From Mycobacteroides salmoniphilum (GTDB lineage: Bacteria > Actinomycetota > Actinomycetes > Mycobacteriales > Mycobacteriaceae), in assembly GCF_004924335.1 (NCBI RefSeq), contig NZ_CP024633.1, positions 2,852,001 through 2,916,000 of the forward strand: a stretch of 64,000 nt of DNA, written 5' to 3'. The position numbers were made by a program, and so were the translations under genes. Below the pieces are notes generated by a model. The model saw only the letters and a program-made list of their open reading frames with translations, did no database searches and had not been told where the DNA came from. The first letter of the stretch is position 1. Each line of letters opens with the position of its first letter. Shown one piece after another: positions 28,312 to 37,168 of this stretch.

Positions 28312-28417
28312 CGCTGGGGAAAAGCCGTACCGGTGAGGTGCTCGGAGGCGGCCCACAGCTGCTCAGCGACTTCGAGATCGCTGGCAGCTGCCGAGCGGCC
28401 GCGCCCGTTTGGCGGAT
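28308..28417 (-). pseudogene. C-terminal relic of a short-chain dehydrogenase
   Basis: The minus strand between the pgsA stop and the FAD-enzyme relic reads G-R-G-R-S-A-A-A-S-D-L-E-V-A-E-Q-L-W-A-A and then S-E-H-L-T-G-T-A-F-P-Q-R-stop. This is the usual C-terminal end of mycobacterial retinol-dehydrogenase-like SDR proteins (LW-x2-S-E-x-L-T-G). Nothing of the NAD-binding region remains, so a deletion joined its tail to the pgsA end. Its TAG shares CTAG with the stop of the facing relic. Confidence 0.55.
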
Positions 28418-29017
28418 TTATGCGGATGTGGGACGAGGACGCAACGCCTGCACCAGATAGTCGATGCCGGTGAGGACGGTGAGGACCACCGCCAGCCCCA
28501 TGAGGACCACCGCCGCGGTGTGCCAGTACCCCGTCAACGGCAGCAGATAGCCGGCGATCGCCAACGACTGGACCATGGTCTTAAGCTTGCCGCCCCGGTT
28601 TGCCGGGATCACACCATGGCGGAGCACCGAGAAGCGCAGCACCGTGATCCCGACCTCACGCACCAAGATGACCACGGTCACCCACCACGGAAGATCTCCG
28701 AGGACACTGAGCCCCACCAGTGCCGCGCCGATGAGCGCCTTATCGGCGATCGGGTCGGCGAGCTGGCCGAATGGGGTGACCAGCCCATAGCGGCGGGCGA
28801 GCACGCCGTCGTATCGGTCGGTAGCGATGGCCAGCGCGAATACCCCGAAAGCGGCAATGCGCCAGGAGGATTGGTGCCCGCCCTCGGTGAACAGGACGAC
28901 GATGAACACCGGTATCAGCACGATGCGCAGCACCGTGAGGATGTTGGCAATGTTCAGCAGAGGCACCGGCGCAGCCGAAGCCTCGGAATCAGGCTGGGTT
29001 TCCGGTGGCATCGGCAC
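28418..29017 (-). CDS. pgsA: CDP-alcohol phosphatidyltransferase, PgsA (PgsA3-like)
   Basis: A 199-residue membrane enzyme. The CDP-alcohol phosphotransferase motif D-G-x2-A-R-x8-G-x3-D-x3-D is complete, within D-R-Y-D-G-V-L-A-R-R and G-Q-L-A-D-P-I-A-D-K. Several membrane helices follow (P-W-W-V-T-V-V-I-L). It probably makes phosphatidylglycerophosphate from CDP-diacylglycerol and glycerol-3-phosphate. Position between clgR and argA matches M. tuberculosis pgsA3 (Rv2746c). Start GTG 29017; ATG 29011 is nearly as good. It diverges from argA. Confidence 0.9.
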   Translation of the reverse strand: MPMPPETQPDSEASAAPVPLLNIANILTVLRIVLIPVFIVVLFTEGGHQSSWRIAAFGVFALAIATDRYDGVLARRYGLVTPFGQLADPIADKALIGAALVGLSVLGDLPWWVTVVILVREVGITVLRFSVLRHGVIPANRGGKLKTMVQSLAIAGYLLPLTGYWHTAAVVLMGLAVVLTVLTGIDYLVQALRPRPTSA

Positions 29018-29059
29018 GTCAAACAGCCTATCTGTTCTGGAGCTGGCTACTGTTCACGC

Positions 29060-29605
29060 ATGAGCGCTGAAGGTACATCCGGCATCTCAGGGAATCCGGG
29101 GCACACGACCCCCACGGTGACCGTTCGCCGGTCCCGTACCTCCGATGTGCCCGCTATCAAGGCGCTTGTCGACGTCTACGCCGGACGGATCCTGCTGGAG
29201 AAGAACCTGGTGACGCTGTACGAGGCGGTCCAGGAGTTCTGGGTGGCCGAACTCGGCGGAGAGATCGTCGGCTGTGGCGCCCTGCACGTGCTGTGGTCGG
29301 ACCTCGGCGAGGTGCGCACCATCGCGGTGCACCCCAGGCTCAAGGGGGCCGGAGTCGGGCACGCGATTGTCAGCCGCCTGCTCGATGTCGCCAGAGATCT
29401 GGAACTCAAAAGGGTGTTCGTGCTGACTTTCGAGGTCGACTTCTTCACCAAACACGGATTCAGCGAGATCGAGGGCACCCCGGTGACCGCCGAGGTGTAC
29501 GAGGAAATGTGCCGGTCCTACGACACCGGTGTGGCCGAGTTCCTCGACCTGAGCTACGTGAAGCCGAACACGCTGGGCAATACCCGGATGCTCGTCCACC
29601 TCTGA
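29060..29605 (+). CDS. argA: N-acetylglutamate synthase, GNAT type
   Basis: A 181-residue GNAT enzyme matching M. tuberculosis ArgA (Rv2747). It acetylates L-glutamate or glutamine, the first step of arginine synthesis. The acetyl-CoA loop is L-K-G-A-G-V-G-H-A-I; other marks are V-R-R-S-R-T-S-D-V-P-A-I-K and F-F-T-K-H-G-F. An N-terminal extension of about 20 Gly/Thr-rich residues is present. In M. tuberculosis ftsK is the next gene; here about 7.5 kb separates them. Confidence 0.92.
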   Translation: MSAEGTSGISGNPGHTTPTVTVRRSRTSDVPAIKALVDVYAGRILLEKNLVTLYEAVQEFWVAELGGEIVGCGALHVLWSDLGEVRTIAVHPRLKGAGVGHAIVSRLLDVARDLELKRVFVLTFEVDFFTKHGFSEIEGTPVTAEVYEEMCRSYDTGVAEFLDLSYVKPNTLGNTRMLVHL

Positions 29606-29654: not shown

Positions 29655-30305
29655 ATGCCACGACTGCGCCAGGTGTCCCGCGCCGAAACCGACGACCGAC
29701 TTGTCCATCGCATGTATGACCAGATTTTCGGCGACCGCGATCCGGTCACCGCTCCGGGAACCACGACCGGCACCCCGGGTGACTGGTGGACGGTCTTTGC
29801 GCTCGTACCCGACGCCCTGAAGCACTCGGTCCAGGGTTTCGCGTTCTACCGCAGCCCCGATCGCAAGCTGGACCCGGTTCTGCGTGAGCTTGGACAGACC
29901 CGGGCCGGCTGGGCACGCCGCAGCCAGTTCGTCTTCTCCCAGCACTGCAAGTCGTGCCGCATTGTCGGCATCTCGGAGGAGATGATCGCCGCGATCCCGT
30001 CGTGGAGTACGGCCGAGTGCTTCACCCCTGTACAGCGCGCCGTGCTGGCCTACACGGACTGCTTGGTGCTCGACGGCGGCCGGGTACCCGATGGCGTGTT
30101 CACCGCACTGAAGGCCCACCTCTCCGATGAGGAAATCCTGGAGCTCACCTACATCACGGCCATGTACGAGATGCACGCGGTGATGAGCACGGCGCTGCGT
30201 TTGGAGTGGGACAACCGCGACGAGCCGATCGTAGAAATCGCGGCTCCCGAGGGGTTCACATCCTTCGATGTGGGCGACGCCATCGCACTGCGGCGCGACG
30301 AGTAG
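29655..30305 (+). CDS. Carboxymuconolactone decarboxylase/AhpD-like protein
   Basis: A 216-residue helical protein with the CMD/AhpD pattern: F-V-F-S-Q-H-C-K-S-C-R-I-V-G near residue 96, with a C-x2-C pair and a neighbouring His that could form a thiol redox centre, and I-T-A-M-Y-E-M-H-A near 170. It may act as a peroxidase-type or gamma-carboxymuconolactone decarboxylase enzyme; which is not clear. It ends four bases from the converging end of the P450/prenyl operon and belongs to the same inserted block between argA and ftsK. Confidence 0.82.
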   Translation: MPRLRQVSRAETDDRLVHRMYDQIFGDRDPVTAPGTTTGTPGDWWTVFALVPDALKHSVQGFAFYRSPDRKLDPVLRELGQTRAGWARRSQFVFSQHCKSCRIVGISEEMIAAIPSWSTAECFTPVQRAVLAYTDCLVLDGGRVPDGVFTALKAHLSDEEILELTYITAMYEMHAVMSTALRLEWDNRDEPIVEIAAPEGFTSFDVGDAIALRRDE

Positions 30306-30309
30306 TGAC

Positions 30310-30882
30310 TCAGCGCCGTATCTGTGCGTGCTCGGCGAGCACTGCCACAACATCGGGATGGCCAGGTACCCACTGACCCGACATCGCGTGTGTCGTCGTT
30401 ACGCTGGCTGGCTCCTTGACTCCTCGAATCTCCATGCAGCCGTGGGCCGCGGTGATGAAGCAGGCAGCACCAACCGGTGAAAGTTCTTCTTGCACTGCGG
30501 TTGTCACCTGGTATCCGATACGCTCCTGCACCTGCAGGCGCCGCGCATAACCGTGGACCACCCGAGCCAGCTTCGAGAGGCCGACAACCTCGCTACCTGC
30601 ACCCGGCCGGTAGGCAACAGTCGCGACCCCGGTGATGGGCAGCAGATGATGTGCGCACGTGGAGACGAGCCGTATCCCAGCCACGATCACCAGACCGGGA
30701 TCGCTCGGCGCCGGAAACCGCCGGCGCAGGTGGACGGCGGGGTCCTCGTCGTATCCGGCAAGCGATTCCGCCCACGCCCTGGCCACCCGCCCTGGAGTGT
30801 CCTCCGTGTGCTCGTCATTGCCGACTCCAGTCGCCAGCAGTAGATCGGTCACGGCGGACTTCACCTTCTCCACATCGATCAT
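30310..30882 (-). CDS. folE: Divergent GTP cyclohydrolase I
   Basis: A 190-residue FolE that should convert GTP to 7,8-dihydroneopterin triphosphate. Zinc ligands Cys76, His79 and Cys149 are kept (C-A-H-H and A-A-H-G-C-M), and the active-site stretch G-L-S-K-L-A-R-V-V is normal. The Glu of the canonical C-E-H-H motif is Ala here, and the N-terminal extension of housekeeping FolE is missing. Mycobacteria normally carry their folate folE in the ftsH-folP cluster, so this is probably a second, pathway-specific copy. It is the last gene of the six-gene operon, 22 bases after the isomerase/pterin synthase fusion. Confidence 0.88.
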   Translation of the reverse strand: MIDVEKVKSAVTDLLLATGVGNDEHTEDTPGRVARAWAESLAGYDEDPAVHLRRRFPAPSDPGLVIVAGIRLVSTCAHHLLPITGVATVAYRPGAGSEVVGLSKLARVVHGYARRLQVQERIGYQVTTAVQEELSPVGAACFITAAHGCMEIRGVKEPASVTTTHAMSGQWVPGHPDVVAVLAEHAQIRR

Positions 30883-30904
30883 CGAACGGTGCTCCCCTCT
30901 CTGT

Positions 30905-31942
30905 TCATGCGCTCCACGACGGCGACTCGGTCAATTCCGCGGCATTGACATGTGTTTCCGTCACCTTGACGCGGTGGACCGTGACATTGGACCAACCGGC
31001 CTCGGCAATGAATCCCGCGGTGACCCGGGCCAGCAGTTCGGAAACGTTCTCGACCGTGGGCCACTCCAAACCGTGCGAGGGGGCGTCGAGGCCAAATCGA
31101 AAGAGCTTCGATCGCTCTGCCCGGAGAGCCGGCACAAGCGGGTCCGCGTGTCCGAGCATCGCGCCGTGATCAAGATTGGCGTCGATCCAGTCCCGCAGCC
31201 GTGCCTTGAGTATCCCGAAGTCGACGAGGATCCCTTGCTCGTTCAATGCCCCAGCCACCGTAATCTCTGTCCACCAGGAATGCCCGTGCAGGTTGACGCA
31301 CTTTCCGCCGAGGATGGGCAGCCGATGCGCGGTCTCGAAATTATGGCGCACCGTAACGGTCCGCGTCGTGGTGCGCCCGCTAGCCTGGAACGGCACCAAT
31401 TCCCTTGAACCAGAAGGCAAGTTTCGTATTTGCGCAAGCTTGGCGACCTGCAACTTGCACCATGGCGACACCGGACGGGTACCGGCGAGCACTTCGTCGC
31501 ACAGCTGCGTCCACGGCAGCCATCGGTAACCCGCCACTTCGTCCGGGTTCAGAGTCGGGACCTCTGCGATCGTGCCCACATAGACCGGGCAGACTTCGTT
31601 CTCAACCACGCCGTTCTCCATGGCTGCCCGATAACGAAAGTCTGGCAGTGCCAGCTGCGGTGATGACATCTGGACACCGAGCTCGTAATGCACCCGTTCG
31701 ATGATCGCCTCGGCGATATCCACGCCCGGAGGTGGATGTCCGCAGCAGCTGTTGGACCAGGCCCCCGGCCAGGTCCGCTTACTCCAAGCGCGCTGGGTAA
31801 GGAGCACGAACCGATAGGACGGATCGAACAGGTAACAAGAAAAGGCAAGGTGCAGTGGAGTGTTGTCGTCATGCACGGTCGCCTTGGGTGCGATGCCGCA
31901 CGCCCGACCGGCGTCATCCAGGAGCACCACGTCATCAGTCAT
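30905..31942 (-). CDS. Fusion: isopentenyl-diphosphate isomerase + QueD/6-pyruvoyl-tetrahydropterin synthase
   Basis: A 345-residue two-domain protein. Residues 1-175 are a type I IPP isomerase (Nudix fold) with catalytic Cys67 in S-C-C-G-H-P and Glu116 in V-V-E-N-E-V-C-P, matching the numbering of the E. coli enzyme. A linker of about 20 residues leads to residues 195-335, a QueD/PTPS domain with zinc ligands His206, His219 and His221 (C-V-N-L-H-G-H), catalytic Cys215, His259 in N-L-D-H, Glu298 in P-T-V-E-N and Glu329 in V-T-E-T. Both active sites look intact. One half equilibrates IPP and DMAPP; the other would act on dihydroneopterin triphosphate from the adjacent folE. The start overlaps the P450 stop by eight bases. 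Confidence 0.9.
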   Translation of the reverse strand: MTDDVVLLDDAGRACGIAPKATVHDDNTPLHLAFSCYLFDPSYRFVLLTQRAWSKRTWPGAWSNSCCGHPPPGVDIAEAIIERVHYELGVQMSSPQLALPDFRYRAAMENGVVENEVCPVYVGTIAEVPTLNPDEVAGYRWLPWTQLCDEVLAGTRPVSPWCKLQVAKLAQIRNLPSGSRELVPFQASGRTTTRTVTVRHNFETAHRLPILGGKCVNLHGHSWWTEITVAGALNEQGILVDFGILKARLRDWIDANLDHGAMLGHADPLVPALRAERSKLFRFGLDAPSHGLEWPTVENVSELLARVTAGFIAEAGWSNVTVHRVKVTETHVNAAELTESPSWSA

Positions 31943-33149
31943 GGCTGCGCCGTTCCCATCGAATCGGTAAGGCATCGCGAATGTTGACCATCGGCAGAGC
32001 CGCCCGCCACGTGGCCGGGTCAGGCAGCACGGGGCAGGTAAATCGTTGCATCAATGCCACCAATGCTTCTTCCAATTCGATTCGGGCCAAGCCGGAGCCG
32101 AGGCAGCGGAATATCCCACCACCGAAAATCAGTTGGCGCTTCTGGTGTTTGGCCAGAATGTCGAAGGTGCCCGCACTGTCATACGCTCTCGGATCTCGCG
32201 TTGCACTCGGCGGACAGAACATCACGAACTGGCCCGGTTCGAGGGTGAGGTCACGGTAGTCGATCCGCTCGGTGGCGAAGCGGAAAATCGCACGGATCTG
32301 CGGCGCAAAACGCAGCACCTCATCGACCGCCTGGCCGATCAGCTCCGGATTTCGATGAACCAGTTCCCACTGCCGCGGGTGGCCGTGAAAAGCGATCAGC
32401 GCCCGACCCAACTGACGGGCCACCGATTCCTGACTGGCCCAGGCGATATCCAGGACAAGCCCCTCTGCTTCTGCCCTGCTCAGCAGGTTCGTTCCGGAAA
32501 CCTCTGCGGCAAGGAAAGATACGAAGTCCTCACCAGGCTCCCGCAGACGAAACTCAAAGAGACCATGGACGTACTTCTTGAGCTGCTCAATACCCTGATC
32601 AATGATCGGCAACACCGCAGGCAGGTCACTCCATACGAACACCAGACCGGCATCCTTCGACACCAATCGGAACATCTCATGATCGCCATCCGGAACACCC
32701 AGCAAGCGCGCGATTGCCCCGCTGGCATAGGGGGATCCGAATCGCTCCGCGAAGTCGACGATCTCGTCGGCCGGCATATCTTGAGCCAGGTTCTGTGCCA
32801 ATGTCCGCAATGCTGGGCGCAGCGCCTCAACTCGCTTGGGGCTCAAGCCCGGAGCCGCCACGGACCGTAGGCGCAGGTGGTCTTCCTGTGGGGTGTTGCG
32901 CACCGTCGTGATCCACCAGTCATACATCGGACCTGACGTGACCCCGTTCATACGCAGGAACCGGCGACCGTCTAGACCCAGGCGGGGATCTTTGAGAAGC
33001 TCGGCGCATTCTTCATAGCGCAGAACAACCGGACCCTGTGGACTCTGCGCGAACCAATACTGCTCGCGGGCCCGATCAACCTCGTCCGAGGCGAGATCGA
33101 AGTCCCGACTCAAGAGATCGAGAAATGGCACCGACGGCGCTGTAAGCAT
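31935..33149 (-). CDS. Cytochrome P450 with unusual I-helix
   Basis: A 404-residue soluble bacterial P450. The haem-binding loop F-G-G-G-I-F-R-C-L-G puts the ligand at Cys349; the E-x-x-R motif is D-E-V-L-R; the PERF-like region is altered. In the I-helix, the usual A-G-x-D/E-T is A-S-Q-E-S, so the conserved Gly and Thr are replaced while the acidic residue remains, which may change oxygen activation. It lies between ubiA (17-base gap) and the isomerase/pterin synthase fusion (8-base overlap). Likely role: oxidation of the prenylated or terpenoid product. Confidence 0.88.
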   Translation of the reverse strand: MLTAPSVPFLDLLSRDFDLASDEVDRAREQYWFAQSPQGPVVLRYEECAELLKDPRLGLDGRRFLRMNGVTSGPMYDWWITTVRNTPQEDHLRLRSVAAPGLSPKRVEALRPALRTLAQNLAQDMPADEIVDFAERFGSPYASGAIARLLGVPDGDHEMFRLVSKDAGLVFVWSDLPAVLPIIDQGIEQLKKYVHGLFEFRLREPGEDFVSFLAAEVSGTNLLSRAEAEGLVLDIAWASQESVARQLGRALIAFHGHPRQWELVHRNPELIGQAVDEVLRFAPQIRAIFRFATERIDYRDLTLEPGQFVMFCPPSATRDPRAYDSAGTFDILAKHQKRQLIFGGGIFRCLGSGLARIELEEALVALMQRFTCPVLPDPATWRAALPMVNIRDALPIRWERRSHD

Positions 33150-33166
33150 TGCGTTCTCCTGCGTAA

Positions 33167-34120
33167 CTATCTGCTGATGAGGACGTAGGCGGCGGGTATC
33201 ACGGTCGACCAGGCCAGGATTGGCGCGTAGTAAGGCAAATACTTCGTGTATGAGCGCACCACGTCGACACCGTCGGCGACCGGCTTACCGATCACGCGCC
33301 GCAAGATGCTGGCGTTGACCGCCAACGCGATACCGACACCGAGTCCATACGGCAGCAGCGCCCACGAGAATCCGCCAAGCTCGAGCACCGCCCACGTGAC
33401 CAGACCGGCGCCAAGACCTACCAGAACGGTTCCCAGCATAAACGCACGTGTAAGACCAAGAGCGCGAACCGAAGTGAGCACACCAAACTGCTCATCCTCG
33501 GGAATGTCCTCGGCTGTTTTAGCCACCATCACGCCGTTGAGAGTCAGACCCATTCCGAAAATCGCCACGAGCGTGAACCATTCGATTGGGTACGGCAATG
33601 AACGAATGATGATCAGCCCAGGCACGATCGTGAGGGTGATGTTCAGCACGGGAATCTGCCAGATCCCCCGGCCTTTCAGCCGTAGCGGCGGCAACGAGTA
33701 CTGGGTTCCAAAGAACAATGCCGCCAGGCCAATACCAACCAGATCCCAGTGCCGGGTGGTGAACATCAGGTACAAACCGAGCACTACGCAGAGCACAATA
33801 GTGGCGTTGATCTCACGCCGTACGCGCGTTTCACCCAAACCGAACACCGCAGTGGCCTGCCGCGACTTGTGCGCGAGGTCTTGGTCACGATCAGCCAGGC
33901 AGTTCACCATATTGCATATCTGTTCGCCCTGAATGACCAGCACCGCAGCAGCCAAGAATGGCAGGGACACTAGGTCCGTCCACGAATGTGCGCTGAGAAA
34001 CGCGGCAACCAGAATGGTTGCTACGGTGCTGGAGAGGAACTCTGGACGACGGATGTGTACGGAGTACCGCAGATGTGTACGCCATGATGTCGGCGTCTCT
34101 GCGTGGGCAAGTTGATCCAT
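33167..34120 (-). CDS. UbiA-family prenyltransferase
   Basis: A 317-residue integral membrane protein with about eight or nine helices. Both Mg-diphosphate motifs are present: N-C-L-A-D-R-D-Q-D at 73-81 (N-x3-D-x3-D) and D-I-P-E-D at 205-209, plus the Y-S-L-P-P-L-R-L-K-G-R-G loop. UbiA proteins attach polyprenyl chains to aromatic rings or, in some bacteria, cyclise terpenes; both are possible here. ATG 34120 is preceded by AGGAGAG, twelve bases away. It follows the polyprenyl synthase by 37 bases, so that enzyme most likely supplies its donor. Confidence 0.88.
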   Translation of the reverse strand: MDQLAHAETPTSWRTHLRYSVHIRRPEFLSSTVATILVAAFLSAHSWTDLVSLPFLAAAVLVIQGEQICNMVNCLADRDQDLAHKSRQATAVFGLGETRVRREINATIVLCVVLGLYLMFTTRHWDLVGIGLAALFFGTQYSLPPLRLKGRGIWQIPVLNITLTIVPGLIIIRSLPYPIEWFTLVAIFGMGLTLNGVMVAKTAEDIPEDEQFGVLTSVRALGLTRAFMLGTVLVGLGAGLVTWAVLELGGFSWALLPYGLGVGIALAVNASILRRVIGKPVADGVDVVRSYTKYLPYYAPILAWSTVIPAAYVLISR

Positions 34121-34157
34121 TGTGTGATCACTCTCCTGGCGTGGGCATCCGTTGCGG

Positions 34158-35168
34158 TTATGCGACACGAGTCGCCATATGCTGGATGAGATTCGAAAAT
34201 GCCTGGCGTGCGGGATTTTCCGGAAGCTGTAACAAGTCGCTCTGCGCCTGGCCGCCCAGTTCAACAAGCTTTTGTGCAGCGAGTTTCACTCCTTGCGCCT
34301 CATTGATGAGAAACAGTGCCTCATCGACGAGACGCGGGTCGTCGATCGGCCCGTGGAGTAGCTCGCGCAGCCGCTGGCCGGCAGGGCTGTCATCGCGCAT
34401 GGCATAGAGCATCGGCAGGGTGATAATCCCTTCCCGTAAATCAGTACCGATGGCTTTGCCTGACTGCGAGAAATCAGAAGAGACGTCGATGATGTCGTCG
34501 GAGATCTGAAACATCGTTCCGAGCAGATCGCCAAATCGGTACAGACAGTCGACATGTTCCTTACGGGCACCGGCAAGCTGCGCCCCCAACTGACCTGCGG
34601 CCGCAATGAGCACGCTTGTCTTGCGCCGAATGGTGATCCAGTAATGGGACTCTGGATCGGTCTCCGCAGGAGCCCCCATCGTCTCCTGCATCTGCCCCGC
34701 CACCAGCTCGGTGAAGGTCACACCGATGATGTCCATCGCGTGCTCCCCCAATGTGGCCGCGATCCGCAGCACACGGCCAATCAGATAGTCGCCCGCGAGA
34801 ACAGCGATTTTGTTGTCCCACATCGCATTCGCGGAATGCACACCGCGGCGCACCAGCGCGCCATCCATCACATCATCGTGATAGAGCGTTGCCAAATGAG
34901 CGATCTCGATCATCGCCGCCGCGAGCACCACCTGAGGATCGTCGGCACCGGGTCCGAACTGTGCCGCCAGTAACGTGAACAGAGAGCGGAAGCGCTTCCC
35001 GCCGGCCCGCGAGAGATGTGACACCGCGTCCAGGACACGCTCGTCGTAGTCGTCCAGCTCAATGGCGAACTGCCGCTCCACATCCTGGAGTCCTTGCCGC
35101 GCGATCTGCGTAAGCACCGGATCACCCAGATCAATGCCGCCCACCAAGACTCCGCCGCTAACCGACAT
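34158..35168 (-). CDS. Polyprenyl diphosphate synthase
   Basis: A 336-residue trans-isoprenyl diphosphate synthase. First aspartate-rich motif D-D-V-M-D is at 98-102 and the second, D-D-I-I-D, at 224-228; A-G-G-K-R-F-R is the IPP-binding site. Residues before the first motif are small (L-A-T-L-Y-H), more like medium or long-chain synthases (GrcC/IspB type) than short farnesyl synthases, so a chain of C20 or longer is likely. The ATG lies inside the upstream P450, an 11-base overlap. It extends DMAPP with IPP, the two compounds balanced by the isomerase in this operon. Confidence 0.9.
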   Translation of the reverse strand: MSVSGGVLVGGIDLGDPVLTQIARQGLQDVERQFAIELDDYDERVLDAVSHLSRAGGKRFRSLFTLLAAQFGPGADDPQVVLAAAMIEIAHLATLYHDDVMDGALVRRGVHSANAMWDNKIAVLAGDYLIGRVLRIAATLGEHAMDIIGVTFTELVAGQMQETMGAPAETDPESHYWITIRRKTSVLIAAAGQLGAQLAGARKEHVDCLYRFGDLLGTMFQISDDIIDVSSDFSQSGKAIGTDLREGIITLPMLYAMRDDSPAGQRLRELLHGPIDDPRLVDEALFLINEAQGVKLAAQKLVELGGQAQSDLLQLPENPARQAFSNLIQHMATRVA

Positions 35169-36597
35169 GGACGGCCCCCTTCAACGACCTTCTCGGGGAT
35201 AGCGCGAGGCGCATCCCATGTTTGGGACGAAGCGTTATCTTCGACAACATCTCCACTCGGTGCCCGGGGTCGTGTTCGAACCGATAGTTTTGAATCAGCG
35301 CAGCCAACACCAGCTGGCCTTCCATCAATGCGAAATGCTTACCTATGCAGACATGCGGTCCACCGCCAAACGGCACATACGCGCGGTGATGAACACCTGC
35401 CGGTTTGTCTCCAACGAATCGAGCAGGTTCGAACTGTCCCGGGTCCCGCCACTGCTCGGGATCACGCCCGATATTGAAGACGCTGATAAGCAGCCGCGCG
35501 CCCTTGGGTATCCGATAGCCCCCGAGTACGGTGTCCTCACTGACCAGCCGCGGCAGGATTGGTGCAGAGGGATAGAGCCGCAACGCCTCGCTCACCACCT
35601 GCTGCGTGTAGGGCAGGTGCGCCAGGTCATCCAGCGCGGGAAGGCGCCCACCCAGCACGCTATCCACTTCCGCCTCCAACACTTTGCGCGCATTATCGTT
35701 CTGCGAGAGCAGATATAGCGCCCAGGTGAGGGTTTGTGCCATCGTCTCGTGGCCCGCGGCAAAGGTCGTGATCACCTCGTCCCGGATTTCGGTATCGCTG
35801 AGCCCCTCCCCGGTGTCTGCATCCCGCGCACTGAGGAGCATGTCAAGTAAGTCCCCTCCAGTGCCGGGGTTTCTCCGCCGCGACCGAATCAGCTCATACA
35901 CAAAATCGTCGAAAGAACCCATCAACTCCCGAAATCGCCGATTGGCCGGAGTCGGCACGATCAACGGGGGACTGAAAGGATTCTGCTGCCGGTTAAATGC
36001 GTAGGTCAGGATCTCCTCGACCGATTCCGGTGTGACGATAATGTCAGCATCGGCCGCCCTCATGCCAAACATGCAGCGCGACACAATATCCAGGGTCGCC
36101 CGGATGATGACTGGATGGACGTCCACGACAGCGCTGCTTCGGGAAACCTCCGCCAGATCGGCAAGCATGGCCTGCGCGCACTCCACCATCGTGGAGTACA
36201 TCCCCGCGATGCTGGGCCGCGAGTAAAGGGGTTGCATCATCCGGCGATTGCGTTTCCAGTGCTCATGGTCTGCGGTCGTCAGCAACCCCTGCCCCAGCAC
36301 CAAACGCAGCGGGCTGGTGTTGCCGAGCTTGCCGTAAACAGCCGTGTTGGCAAGTACTTCGGCGGCAAGCTGGTGGTCCGAGACGCAGTAAACCTGCAAT
36401 GGGCCAAGACGGTAGCGGACCACTCCCCCATAGCGTTCCCACCCGATCCGGGTCGCTTCGAGAATGTCCCGGCGAAACGCAGGGATGCTCCCCAACAGGG
36501 GGGATCCGGGGACCAGCGGCGCCAGCGGGCTATCCGCCCATCCGCTGTCAGCTGCATTAGCTGCAGATTTATCCAGACGCGATCTCGAGAGCCTCAT
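35158..36597 (-). CDS. Cytochrome P450, CYP4/CYP102-like class
   Basis: A 479-residue P450, longer than most bacterial forms. A proline-rich entry ([10 protein letters not shown]) precedes the catalytic domain. The I-helix A-G-H-E-T is canonical, E-x-x-R is E-A-L-R-L-Y-P, and the haem loop [11 protein letters not shown] gives Cys417. No fused reductase. The pattern resembles fatty-acid or terpene hydroxylases. It is the first gene of the six-gene operon; GGAAGG lies nine bases before the ATG, and a CRP-like palindrome lies 45-60 bases upstream. Confidence 0.9.
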
Positions 36598-36641
36598 ACA
36601 AGCAGCCTTCCGCTATGGCGAGAACCACATGTCGACATCCG

Positions 36642-36657
36642 TGCGATCTAAATCACA
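36642..36657. promoter_or_regulatory. CRP-like palindrome upstream of the P450/prenyl operon
   Basis: TGCGATCTAAATCACA matches the mycobacterial CRP (Rv3676 type) consensus TGTGA-N6-TCACA with one arm mismatch; outward bases extend the symmetry (GTGCGAT/ATCACAC). It lies 45-60 bases before the first ATG of the operon, a position that would affect promoter activity. Confidence 0.5.
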
Positions 36658-37168
36658 CGCCACCTGGGGAGGAACACTCCCACAATGCCAGCCGGCATCC
36701 AAGGGGATTTAATTTGCTGAATGGTGTGTCAATCGTCACCCTGCCGAGACCTTGACAGCGGGATTTATCCATACTACAAGCGCAGTGATCGTCTCACTGC
36801 GCCGACAGTGCAATAACACACGACCTAACTTATGCCTATTTACCTGCGTAGATGGGACACGCCTCATCGCAGGCGTGTGTCGCCGGGTGACGCGGAATTC
36901 TCCAGGCGGCGGAGATGGTCCATTGGTCAGAAGATGTCGAGAACTCAGTAAAAGAGTTACTGCGAACGTGTCGACGACTGCAATTCTGGCTAATGCGTGT
37001 ATCCACTCTTGCGGGATGAGAACCCAACGGGCCCCTCGTCTAGCGGAACCCGCCGAGCACACTCAGGGAAGTACCAACCAAGATCTGCTTCGTTGCTGTA
37101 GCAATGAAGCGGCCTGCCGTCGTCAAGCCAGGGCTCCACCATCGACACCCGGAAACGCACCCCGAGAT
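36658..37168. other. Long non-coding stretch between the P450/prenyl operon and ftsK
   Basis: About 510 bases without a convincing gene. It is visibly AT-richer than the flanks, especially 36700-36880. It should contain the operon promoter at its left end and the ftsK 3' region at its right end. The short ORFs within it lack ribosome sites and protein-like composition. It could mark the edge of the inserted block. Confidence 0.5.
37087..37110. terminator. Hairpin downstream of ftsK
   Basis: GCTTCGTTGC (37087-37096) and GCAATGAAGC (37101-37110) pair over ten positions, one as a G-T wobble, around the loop TGTA. It lies 59 bases past the ftsK stop on the minus strand and is a likely terminator, without a T-run. 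Confidence 0.5.

Follow-up and report, generated by a model that had tools for sequence, protein, structure and literature searches.

A six-gene operon of Mycobacteroides salmoniphilum that joins terpenoid and pterin enzymes and may make a prenylated pterin

Mycobacteroides salmoniphilum carries a compact operon of six minus-strand genes within a stretch of 64,000 nucleotides of its chromosome (contig NZ_CP024633.1, positions 2,852,001 to 2,916,000), referred to here as the window, in whose numbering all coordinates are given. The operon brings together enzymes of isoprenoid chemistry, namely two cytochromes P450, a polyprenyl diphosphate synthase, a UbiA-family prenyltransferase and an isopentenyl-diphosphate isomerase (IDI), and enzymes of pterin chemistry, namely QueD and GTP cyclohydrolase I (FolE). 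This combination suggests a product in which a prenyl chain may be attached to a pterin. The features of the locus are as follows.

35158..36597, minus strand: P450a, operon gene 1, a terpenoid-hydroxylase-like cytochrome P450 (Pfam p450, 3.6e-94)
34158..35168, minus strand: all-trans polyprenyl diphosphate synthase (Pfam, 3.1e-57; motifs DDVMD and DDIID)
33167..34120, minus strand: UbiA-family membrane prenyltransferase (Pfam UbiA, 1.1e-14; motifs NxxxDxxxD and DxxxD)
31935..33149, minus strand: P450b, a second cytochrome P450 (Pfam p450, 1.4e-11)
30905..31975, minus strand: IDI-QueD fusion (Pfam NUDIX, 3.5e-14; Pfam PTPS, 9.8e-25)
31421..31942, minus strand: type I isopentenyl-diphosphate isomerase domain of the fusion, residues 12-185 (NCBIfam; PDB 3hyq, 9.8e-43)
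30920..31363, minus strand: PTPS-I/QueD domain of the fusion, residues 205-352, of the CxxxHGH type (PTPS, 87 bits)
30310..30882, minus strand: GTP cyclohydrolase I (FolE), the second copy in the genome (Pfam, 9.4e-51)
30306..37168, no strand: acquired insert, from the stop codon of the neighbouring CMD-family gene to the ftsK stop codon, made up of the operon and a 571-nt upstream region (site comparison)

All six reading frames are open at the positions given in an earlier note on this DNA, and the compact operon and families described there are borne out by Pfam and NCBIfam profiles, by motifs and by the gene order in four genomes. The full operon is found in identical order, at the same site between the CMD-family gene and ftsK, in three close relatives among the rapidly growing mycobacteria, namely Mycobacterium sp. 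D16Q14 (L081), Mycobacteroides sp. LB1 (L082) and Mycobacterium sp. D16R12 (L083). Because the Pfam E-values of the operon proteins range from 1.4e-11 to 3.6e-94 and this order is kept in the four genomes, chance is excluded. Every junction is an overlap or a gap of at most 41 nt. The P450a and prenyl synthase genes overlap by 11 nt, and gaps of 37, 17 and 22 nt separate the prenyl synthase from UbiA (counted from the ATG at 34120), UbiA from P450b and IDI-QueD from FolE, respectively. P450b and IDI-QueD overlap by 41 nt; the fusion may instead start at the ATG at 31942, which would reduce this overlap to 8 nt. The mechanically called UbiA frame (33167-34267) begins at a TTG at 34267; translation more probably starts at the ATG at 34120. 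RNA elements were rejected as further features, given 0 Rfam matches at gathering scores within the window.

The pterin half of the operon begins with FolE, which matches its Pfam family at 172 bits (cut-off 27) and NF006826 at 175 bits (cut-off 162), and falls below the cut-offs of NF006825, TIGR00063 and NF006824. Its CAHH and HGC zinc and catalytic residues align with those of the host FolE. This other copy lies at C1:437543-438076 of the closed host genome (4,776,697 bases) and scores 253 bits against the family, as opposed to 172 bits for the operon protein. Since a second, higher-scoring FolE is present, the operon copy should be dispensable for folate synthesis.

The QueD domain carries the active-site motifs CVNLHGH, LDHG and ETHVN, and its active-site residues agree with those of QueDs from QueD-QueE-FolE triads. 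The PTPS motif classes are CxxxHGH for PTPS-I, CxxxxxHGH for the biopterin enzymes (PTPS-II) and ExxHGH for the folate type (PMC5041015). The domain belongs to the PTPS-I class, with a glycine at the PTPS-II position and no PTPS-II motif. It is fused in frame to the IDI domain, and the fusion is full length in the window, D16Q14 and D16R12, and complete but for three residues in LB1. In the M. salmoniphilum genome, only this locus matches the fusion query, and no second type I IDI was seen; among 98 genomes searched, the full-length fusion occurs in M. salmoniphilum only. Carriage of the fusion by mobile elements was considered and rejected: 130 plasmid records and 27 phage records matched, none covering 80% of it, with 20 listed plasmid matches falling in the IDI part and 15 listed phage matches in the QueD or IDI part.

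The later steps of 7-deazaguanine synthesis are missing. QueE was found in none of four cluster-bearing genomes (M. salmoniphilum, LB1, D16R12 and Mycobacteroides sp. CBMA 271, which holds a diverged cluster) and in both control genomes, which were easy controls in that they were already known to hold a QueE close to the query. The search for QueC in the M. salmoniphilum genome gave a single match of 24 bits, against a cut-off of 150.3, and nothing above the cut-off; the same family gave matches in 12 of 14 control genomes, nine of them over the cut-off. With neither QueE nor QueC found, the route is unlikely to lead to a 7-deazaguanine, as the earlier note had also argued, and should end at carboxypterin. 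The expected end point of FolE acting together with QueD is 6-carboxytetrahydropterin.

In the isoprenoid half, the prenyl synthase scores 377 bits against NPPPS_Mycobact (cut-off 600), and its nearest PDB entries are 9imq, a nonaprenyl (C45) synthase, at 313 bits and 3lmd, named as a geranylgeranyl (C20) synthase, at 305 bits. The chain may thus range from C20 to C45, which does not settle the 'C20 or longer' of the earlier note. The IDI domain reaches 234 bits against PRK03759 (cut-off 127) and UbiA 54.7 bits against its Pfam family (cut-off 34.2). Both aspartate-rich Mg/diphosphate motifs of UbiA are present in all five cluster sequences (window and L081-L084, the last being that of CBMA 271), and these five UbiAs form one clade in a quick tree, with an SH-aLRT support of 100.

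Inspection of the translations by eye shows FxxGxxxCxG in both P450s. The best NCBIfam matches of P450a are albaflavenone monooxygenase and pentalenene oxygenase, both below their cut-offs, and its PDB matches are 7wzl, 6l8i and 3dbg, of which we take 3dbg to be CYP170A1 and 6l8i to be CYP97. The solved structures nearest to P450b are 3p3l (218 bits) and 3p3o (217 bits), both presumably AurH, followed by a different protein at 132 bits. AurH is described as forming a tetrahydrofuran ring through two C-O bond formations (PMC6718629).

A second version of the cluster helps to separate its constant genes from its variable ones. In Mycobacteroides sp. CBMA 271 (L063, L084), P450a, the prenyl synthase, UbiA and FolE are 66%, 63%, 68% and 73% identical to the window proteins, and the cluster continues with an S-adenosylmethionine-dependent methyltransferase, a second P450 (40%) and a RibD_C reductase. 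The possibility that this RibD_C is the housekeeping copy was rejected, as CBMA 271 has a further copy outside the cluster (43% identical, its matched part containing a single in-frame TAG); M. salmoniphilum also has a copy, 45% identical to the one in the CBMA 271 cluster. The earlier note had made its reading depend on whether FolE and QueD are conserved together with the prenyl genes. FolE stands in all five known clusters of the UbiA clade (window, L081-L084), at two chromosomal sites, and QueD in four of them, so that the association holds fully for FolE and in part for QueD. With protein identities of 91-99%, the four full operons are closely related, and the five clusters therefore represent two lineages, not five independent cases. 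Because the cluster FolEs and the cluster UbiAs each form one clade, FolE was probably already present in the common ancestor of both versions. No further UbiA-FolE cluster was found in thin samples of 401 genomes of the family and 396 of the phylum (UbiA, E <= 1e-25) and 296 of the class (FolE, E <= 1e-55).

Selection on the operon was estimated from the ratio of nonsynonymous to synonymous substitution rates (dN/dS) between the window and L081, L082 and L083. The values are 0.04-0.06 for FolE, 0.12-0.14 for IDI-QueD, 0.05-0.13 for P450b, 0.14-0.32 for UbiA, 0.12-0.18 for the prenyl synthase and 0.09-0.15 for P450a, with 0.04-0.11 for ftsK; against CBMA 271, synonymous divergence (dS) is saturated at 1.8-2.4. 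FolE has the lowest or second lowest ratio of the operon genes in each comparison, P450b lying slightly below it in two of three. In all three pairs, the QueD part of the fusion is better conserved than the IDI part (96-99% versus 90-97%). FolE is therefore under strong purifying selection despite the presence of a housekeeping FolE, and the operon genes look in use.

The closest relatives of the operon's FolE and QueD belong to QueD-QueE-FolE triads of actinomycetes and viral contigs. In genome G1246 (L191), QueD is 66% and FolE 68% identical, with QueE in between, and the viral contig L049 shows the same arrangement at 61% and 68%. FolE adjoins QueD in 13 of 14 IMG/VR loci (QueD 50-62%, FolE 42-68%), where QueE was confirmed in both loci checked, and QueE accompanies the relatives in all eight neighbourhoods examined. 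In the class-wide sample of 296 genomes, FolE at E <= 1e-55 occurs elsewhere only in G1246 and G1173, both with an adjoining QueE. The actinophages Saguaro, Sonali, Funsized and Megan have a transglycosylase, QueC, QueD, QueE and FolE in a row or nearly so; identity of FolE to the first three is 58-63%, and that of QueD to all four is just 24-49%. In a quick tree, the FolEs of the clusters group in a single clade (SH-aLRT 83; 99 for the four full operons) that does not include the host FolE; in the QueD tree, branches are long and forks weak. In G1246 (L191, 7540-15627), the triad is followed by two ATP-grasp-type proteins, KAS III, an acyl-CoA dehydrogenase and an aminotransferase; this locus looks like a natural-product cluster and may use 7-carboxy-7-deazaguanine.

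The relatives of UbiA were found by a scan of named genomes with two short peptide patterns (61 loci), which can miss members, and were sorted by their neighbours. Among the best 34 of these 61 loci (L081-L114), FolE stands near UbiA in four, all of the Mycobacteroides group, a type III polyketide synthase (PKS) with a cupin in six Nocardia, PhzD/PhzE-type genes in five (L093, L094, L099, L103 and L104, three of them with PhzF) and a DUF1702 gene in ten Nocardia. Several sister clades of UbiA thus adjoin scaffold pathways, a case of guilt by association in which the phenazine-type loci are recognised by homology only. Within the Mycobacteroides clade, FolE with QueD or RibD_C are the only scaffold-building genes. 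In L099 (Streptomyces; UbiA 37% identical), genes for DAHP synthase, PhzE, PhzF, FMO-like, ABM and FAD_binding_3 proteins, UbiA and a polyprenyl synthase lie in a row, a set resembling the mpz cluster. Its membrane-bound prenyltransferase Mpz10 prenylates 1,6-dihydroxyphenazine twice and has a Nocardia brasiliensis protein as its best BLAST hit (PMC4044012).

Several of these loci deserve a record of their own. In Mycobacterium sp. 852002-40037 (L066, 8855-16205; L103), UbiA lies among a methyltransferase, PhzF, a MenJ-like reductase, an isochorismatase-type (PhzD-like) hydrolase and a PhzE-like synthase, with a P450-like match further along, and this is a putative prenylated-phenazine cluster in a Mycobacterium. 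In Nocardia (L076, L085-L089 and L092), UbiA stands beside a type III PKS and a cupin, with an FMN reductase also in L076, a probable prenylated polyketide cluster. One of the ten Nocardia DUF1702 loci (L096) additionally encodes type I PKS-like and UnbV/ASPIC domains, and two UbiA genes occur in each of L095, L098 and L100. Among the other 27 loci, whose UbiA matches are weaker, a Heimdallarchaeota contig (L116) has matches to FolE (42%) and UbiA (25%) about 8.4 kb apart.

Gene association leads us to infer, at slightly better than even confidence, that the operon makes a meroterpenoid with a reduced pterin as its non-terpene part. The prenylated-pterin product proposed in the earlier note has thus kept the support of FolE and QueD conservation, and its identity is still a matter of prediction. 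By family chemistry, FolE would convert GTP into 7,8-dihydroneopterin triphosphate, and the QueD domain, whose motif and active site are in place, would be expected to turn this into 6-carboxy-5,6,7,8-tetrahydropterin. The fused IDI domain would isomerise isopentenyl diphosphate to dimethylallyl diphosphate (DMAPP), and the polyprenyl synthase would build an all-trans C20-C45 diphosphate. At the membrane, UbiA might then transfer the prenyl chain onto the electron-rich reduced pterin. To judge from their nearest relatives, P450a would next oxidise the terpenoid chain, and P450b could form one more C-O bond or a ring. In CBMA 271, the reduced pterin would come from the RibD_C-type reductase instead of QueD, and the methyltransferase would decorate it. 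Rv2671 is presumably a member of the RibD_C family. As it is reported to reduce dihydrofolate (PMC10530724), the exchange of RibD_C for QueD appears plausible.

Several points weigh against this interpretation. The QueD domain lies under the NCBIfam QueD cut-off (TIGR03367, 64.7 versus 89.25), and the acceptor of UbiA cannot be read from its sequence. This UbiA is only 36-40% identical to the phenazine-cluster UbiAs found, an alignment that does not include Mpz10 itself, and nine of the best 34 UbiA loci have none of the four markers, so the rule of a neighbouring scaffold pathway is not universal. There was no IDI-QueD match in the 17-21 kb CBMA 271 stretch, the rest of that genome not having been searched for QueD; because this cluster is without QueD, carboxypterin is not the common acceptor as far as cluster genes alone are concerned. 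RibD_C proteins are familiar chiefly from riboflavin synthesis, and the reductase of CBMA 271 could act on another substrate. A P450 redox partner, an exporter and a regulator are all absent from the six genes. Only five clusters are known, from two lineages of one clade of one genus, and neither a metabolite nor an enzyme assay for this UbiA clade was found in the literature.

The missing redox partner would also fit the best-placed alternative, in which the pterin is a cofactor. On this account, which we consider unlikely, FolE and QueD (or RibD_C) would supply a tetrahydropterin to reduce or donate electrons to the P450s or to serve in redox protection, and UbiA would prenylate or cyclise something else; a tetrahydropterin is a plausible end point of both versions of the cluster. 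However, the six genes include no tetrahydropterin-dependent hydroxylase, and QueD is of the CxxxHGH class, not of the CxxxxxHGH biopterin class. Moreover, FolE and QueD are the only acceptor-building enzymes in the operon.

The constraint on FolE speaks to another possibility, namely that FolE and QueD are leftovers of a captured triad-type cassette and that the product is an ordinary terpenoid or prenylquinone-like compound, with UbiA serving as a terpene cyclase or taking a housekeeping aromatic as its substrate. Leftovers would decay, whereas FolE is strongly constrained (dN/dS 0.04-0.06) and is retained in the diverged CBMA 271 cluster, and QueD has been fused to IDI. The resemblance of P450a to terpene oxygenases, and the closeness of FolE and QueD to triad members of actinomycetes and viral contigs, keep this explanation in view as a rather improbable one.

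The weakest proposal, a 7-deazaguanine-terpenoid formed if a non-QueE enzyme such as P450b contracted the ring of carboxypterin before prenylation of the deazapurine, can draw on the company of QueE in all eight neighbourhoods, on the ability of P450s to abstract hydrogen and on tuberculosinyl adenosine as a terpenoid nucleobase, but is very unlikely, as QueE was not found in four cluster-bearing genomes and QueC not above its cut-off in the host's own, the CBMA 271 cluster, being without QueD, cannot follow this route with cluster genes alone, and no P450 is known to perform such a contraction.

The operon reached its present site by insertion. The host groups with Mycobacteroides, and in the nine genomes with the most similar ftsK (88-100% identical; drawn from a sample of 297 that does not hold LB1 or D16Q14), the site is occupied in two (M. 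salmoniphilum itself and D16R12, G169) and empty in seven. In the empty sites, argA and the CMD-family gene lie directly against ftsK; CBMA 271 is among them, its own version being on another contig. Because seven of these nine genomes have argA-CMD abutting ftsK without the operon, the CMD-family gene is old and the operon is an acquired insert of about 6.86 kb (30306-37168). The CMD-family gene (29655-30305, plus strand) was accordingly rejected as a seventh operon gene, being present without the operon in seven of the nine; it adjoins argA in all nine, with or without the operon, and neither ArgA nor FtsK is matched in the flanks (about 1.5 kb) of other CMD relatives (L143-L145).

The composition of the operon also differs from that of its surroundings, with a G+C content of 60.8% versus 64.1-64.2% in the flanks and a tetranucleotide distance (0.221) above those of 20 equal-size tiled stretches (maximum 0.209, in one overlapping the operon). 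Between LB1 and the window, dS is 0.14-0.35 for the operon genes versus 0.46 for ftsK and 0.75 for the CMD-family gene, and these lower values suggest a later exchange of the operon between species. No informative flanking repeats were found around the insert. Straight after the ftsK stop codon (36990-37166, minus strand), a 58-codon open frame without a start resembles, by eye, the end of a protein and is perhaps a remnant of the acquisition. Further out, the ArgA frame (28409-29605, plus strand) extends beyond the family model by about 230 residues at its N-terminus, and sequences about 40% identical to part of this extension lie immediately upstream of argA in other mycobacteria.

The known systems closest to the operon each share only a part of it. 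In the mpz cluster of Streptomyces sp. SpC080624SC-11, which makes the prenylated phenazines JBIR-46/47/48, a UbiA-type enzyme likewise stands beside genes for a nitrogen-heteroaromatic acceptor and for isoprenoid supply (PMC4044012). The acceptor genes there are phenazine phzBCDEFG-like and not FolE with QueD or RibD_C; Mpz10 uses the C5 substrate DMAPP beside six mevalonate genes, whereas the operon has a polyprenyl synthase, IDI and two P450s. No PhzD, PhzE or PhzF was found among the six genes or adjoining UbiA in L081-L084; a 27% PhzE match lies about 7.7 kb off in L082. The preQ0/7-deazaguanine cassettes of G1246, L049 and the actinophages Saguaro, Sonali, Funsized and Megan have FolE of the same type; unlike them, the operon is without QueE, QueC and a transglycosylase, and its QueD is fused to IDI in a terpenoid operon. 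The Nocardia clusters with type III PKS and cupin (L085-L089, L092) share UbiA at 44-45% identity but have polyketide acceptor genes and no match to the operon FolE, QueD or prenyl synthase. The pathway to tetrahydrobiopterin, through FolE, PTPS-II and sepiapterin reductase, also passes from FolE to a COG0720 enzyme; unlike it, the operon has a CxxxHGH (PTPS-I) QueD, and sepiapterin reductase is absent from the six genes.

The operon would therefore be of a known kind, the UbiA-type meroterpenoid cluster, with a scaffold pathway that appears new within the literature searched. In the open-licence PMC literature, no described pathway was found for a prenylated pterin, for UbiA with GTP cyclohydrolase, for a pterin meroterpenoid or for QueD in the synthesis of pterin natural products, which agrees with the statement of the earlier note that it knew of none with this gene set. 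A more far-reaching view, tentative and somewhat short of even in our estimation, is that the operon defines a new class of bacterial meroterpenoids, membrane-anchored polyprenylated tetrahydropterins, for which FolE and QueD were captured from a QueD-QueE-FolE cassette and joined to a UbiA/P450 terpenoid module. Such a compound might serve as a redox cofactor soluble in lipid, or might be secreted as a small molecule. To our knowledge, a lipid-anchored pterin would be the first known, and no such paper was found in the same literature.

The prenylated-pterin prediction is directly testable by mass spectrometry, by comparing carriers with close relatives whose site is empty. Known acceptors of UbiA-type enzymes in bacterial secondary metabolism are a hydroxyquinoline, a small polyketide and phenazines (PMC4044012). 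If the prediction is true, the pterin acceptor would be a new scaffold class for enzymes of this type, and the operon would show how a base-modification cassette was rebuilt into natural-product synthesis.

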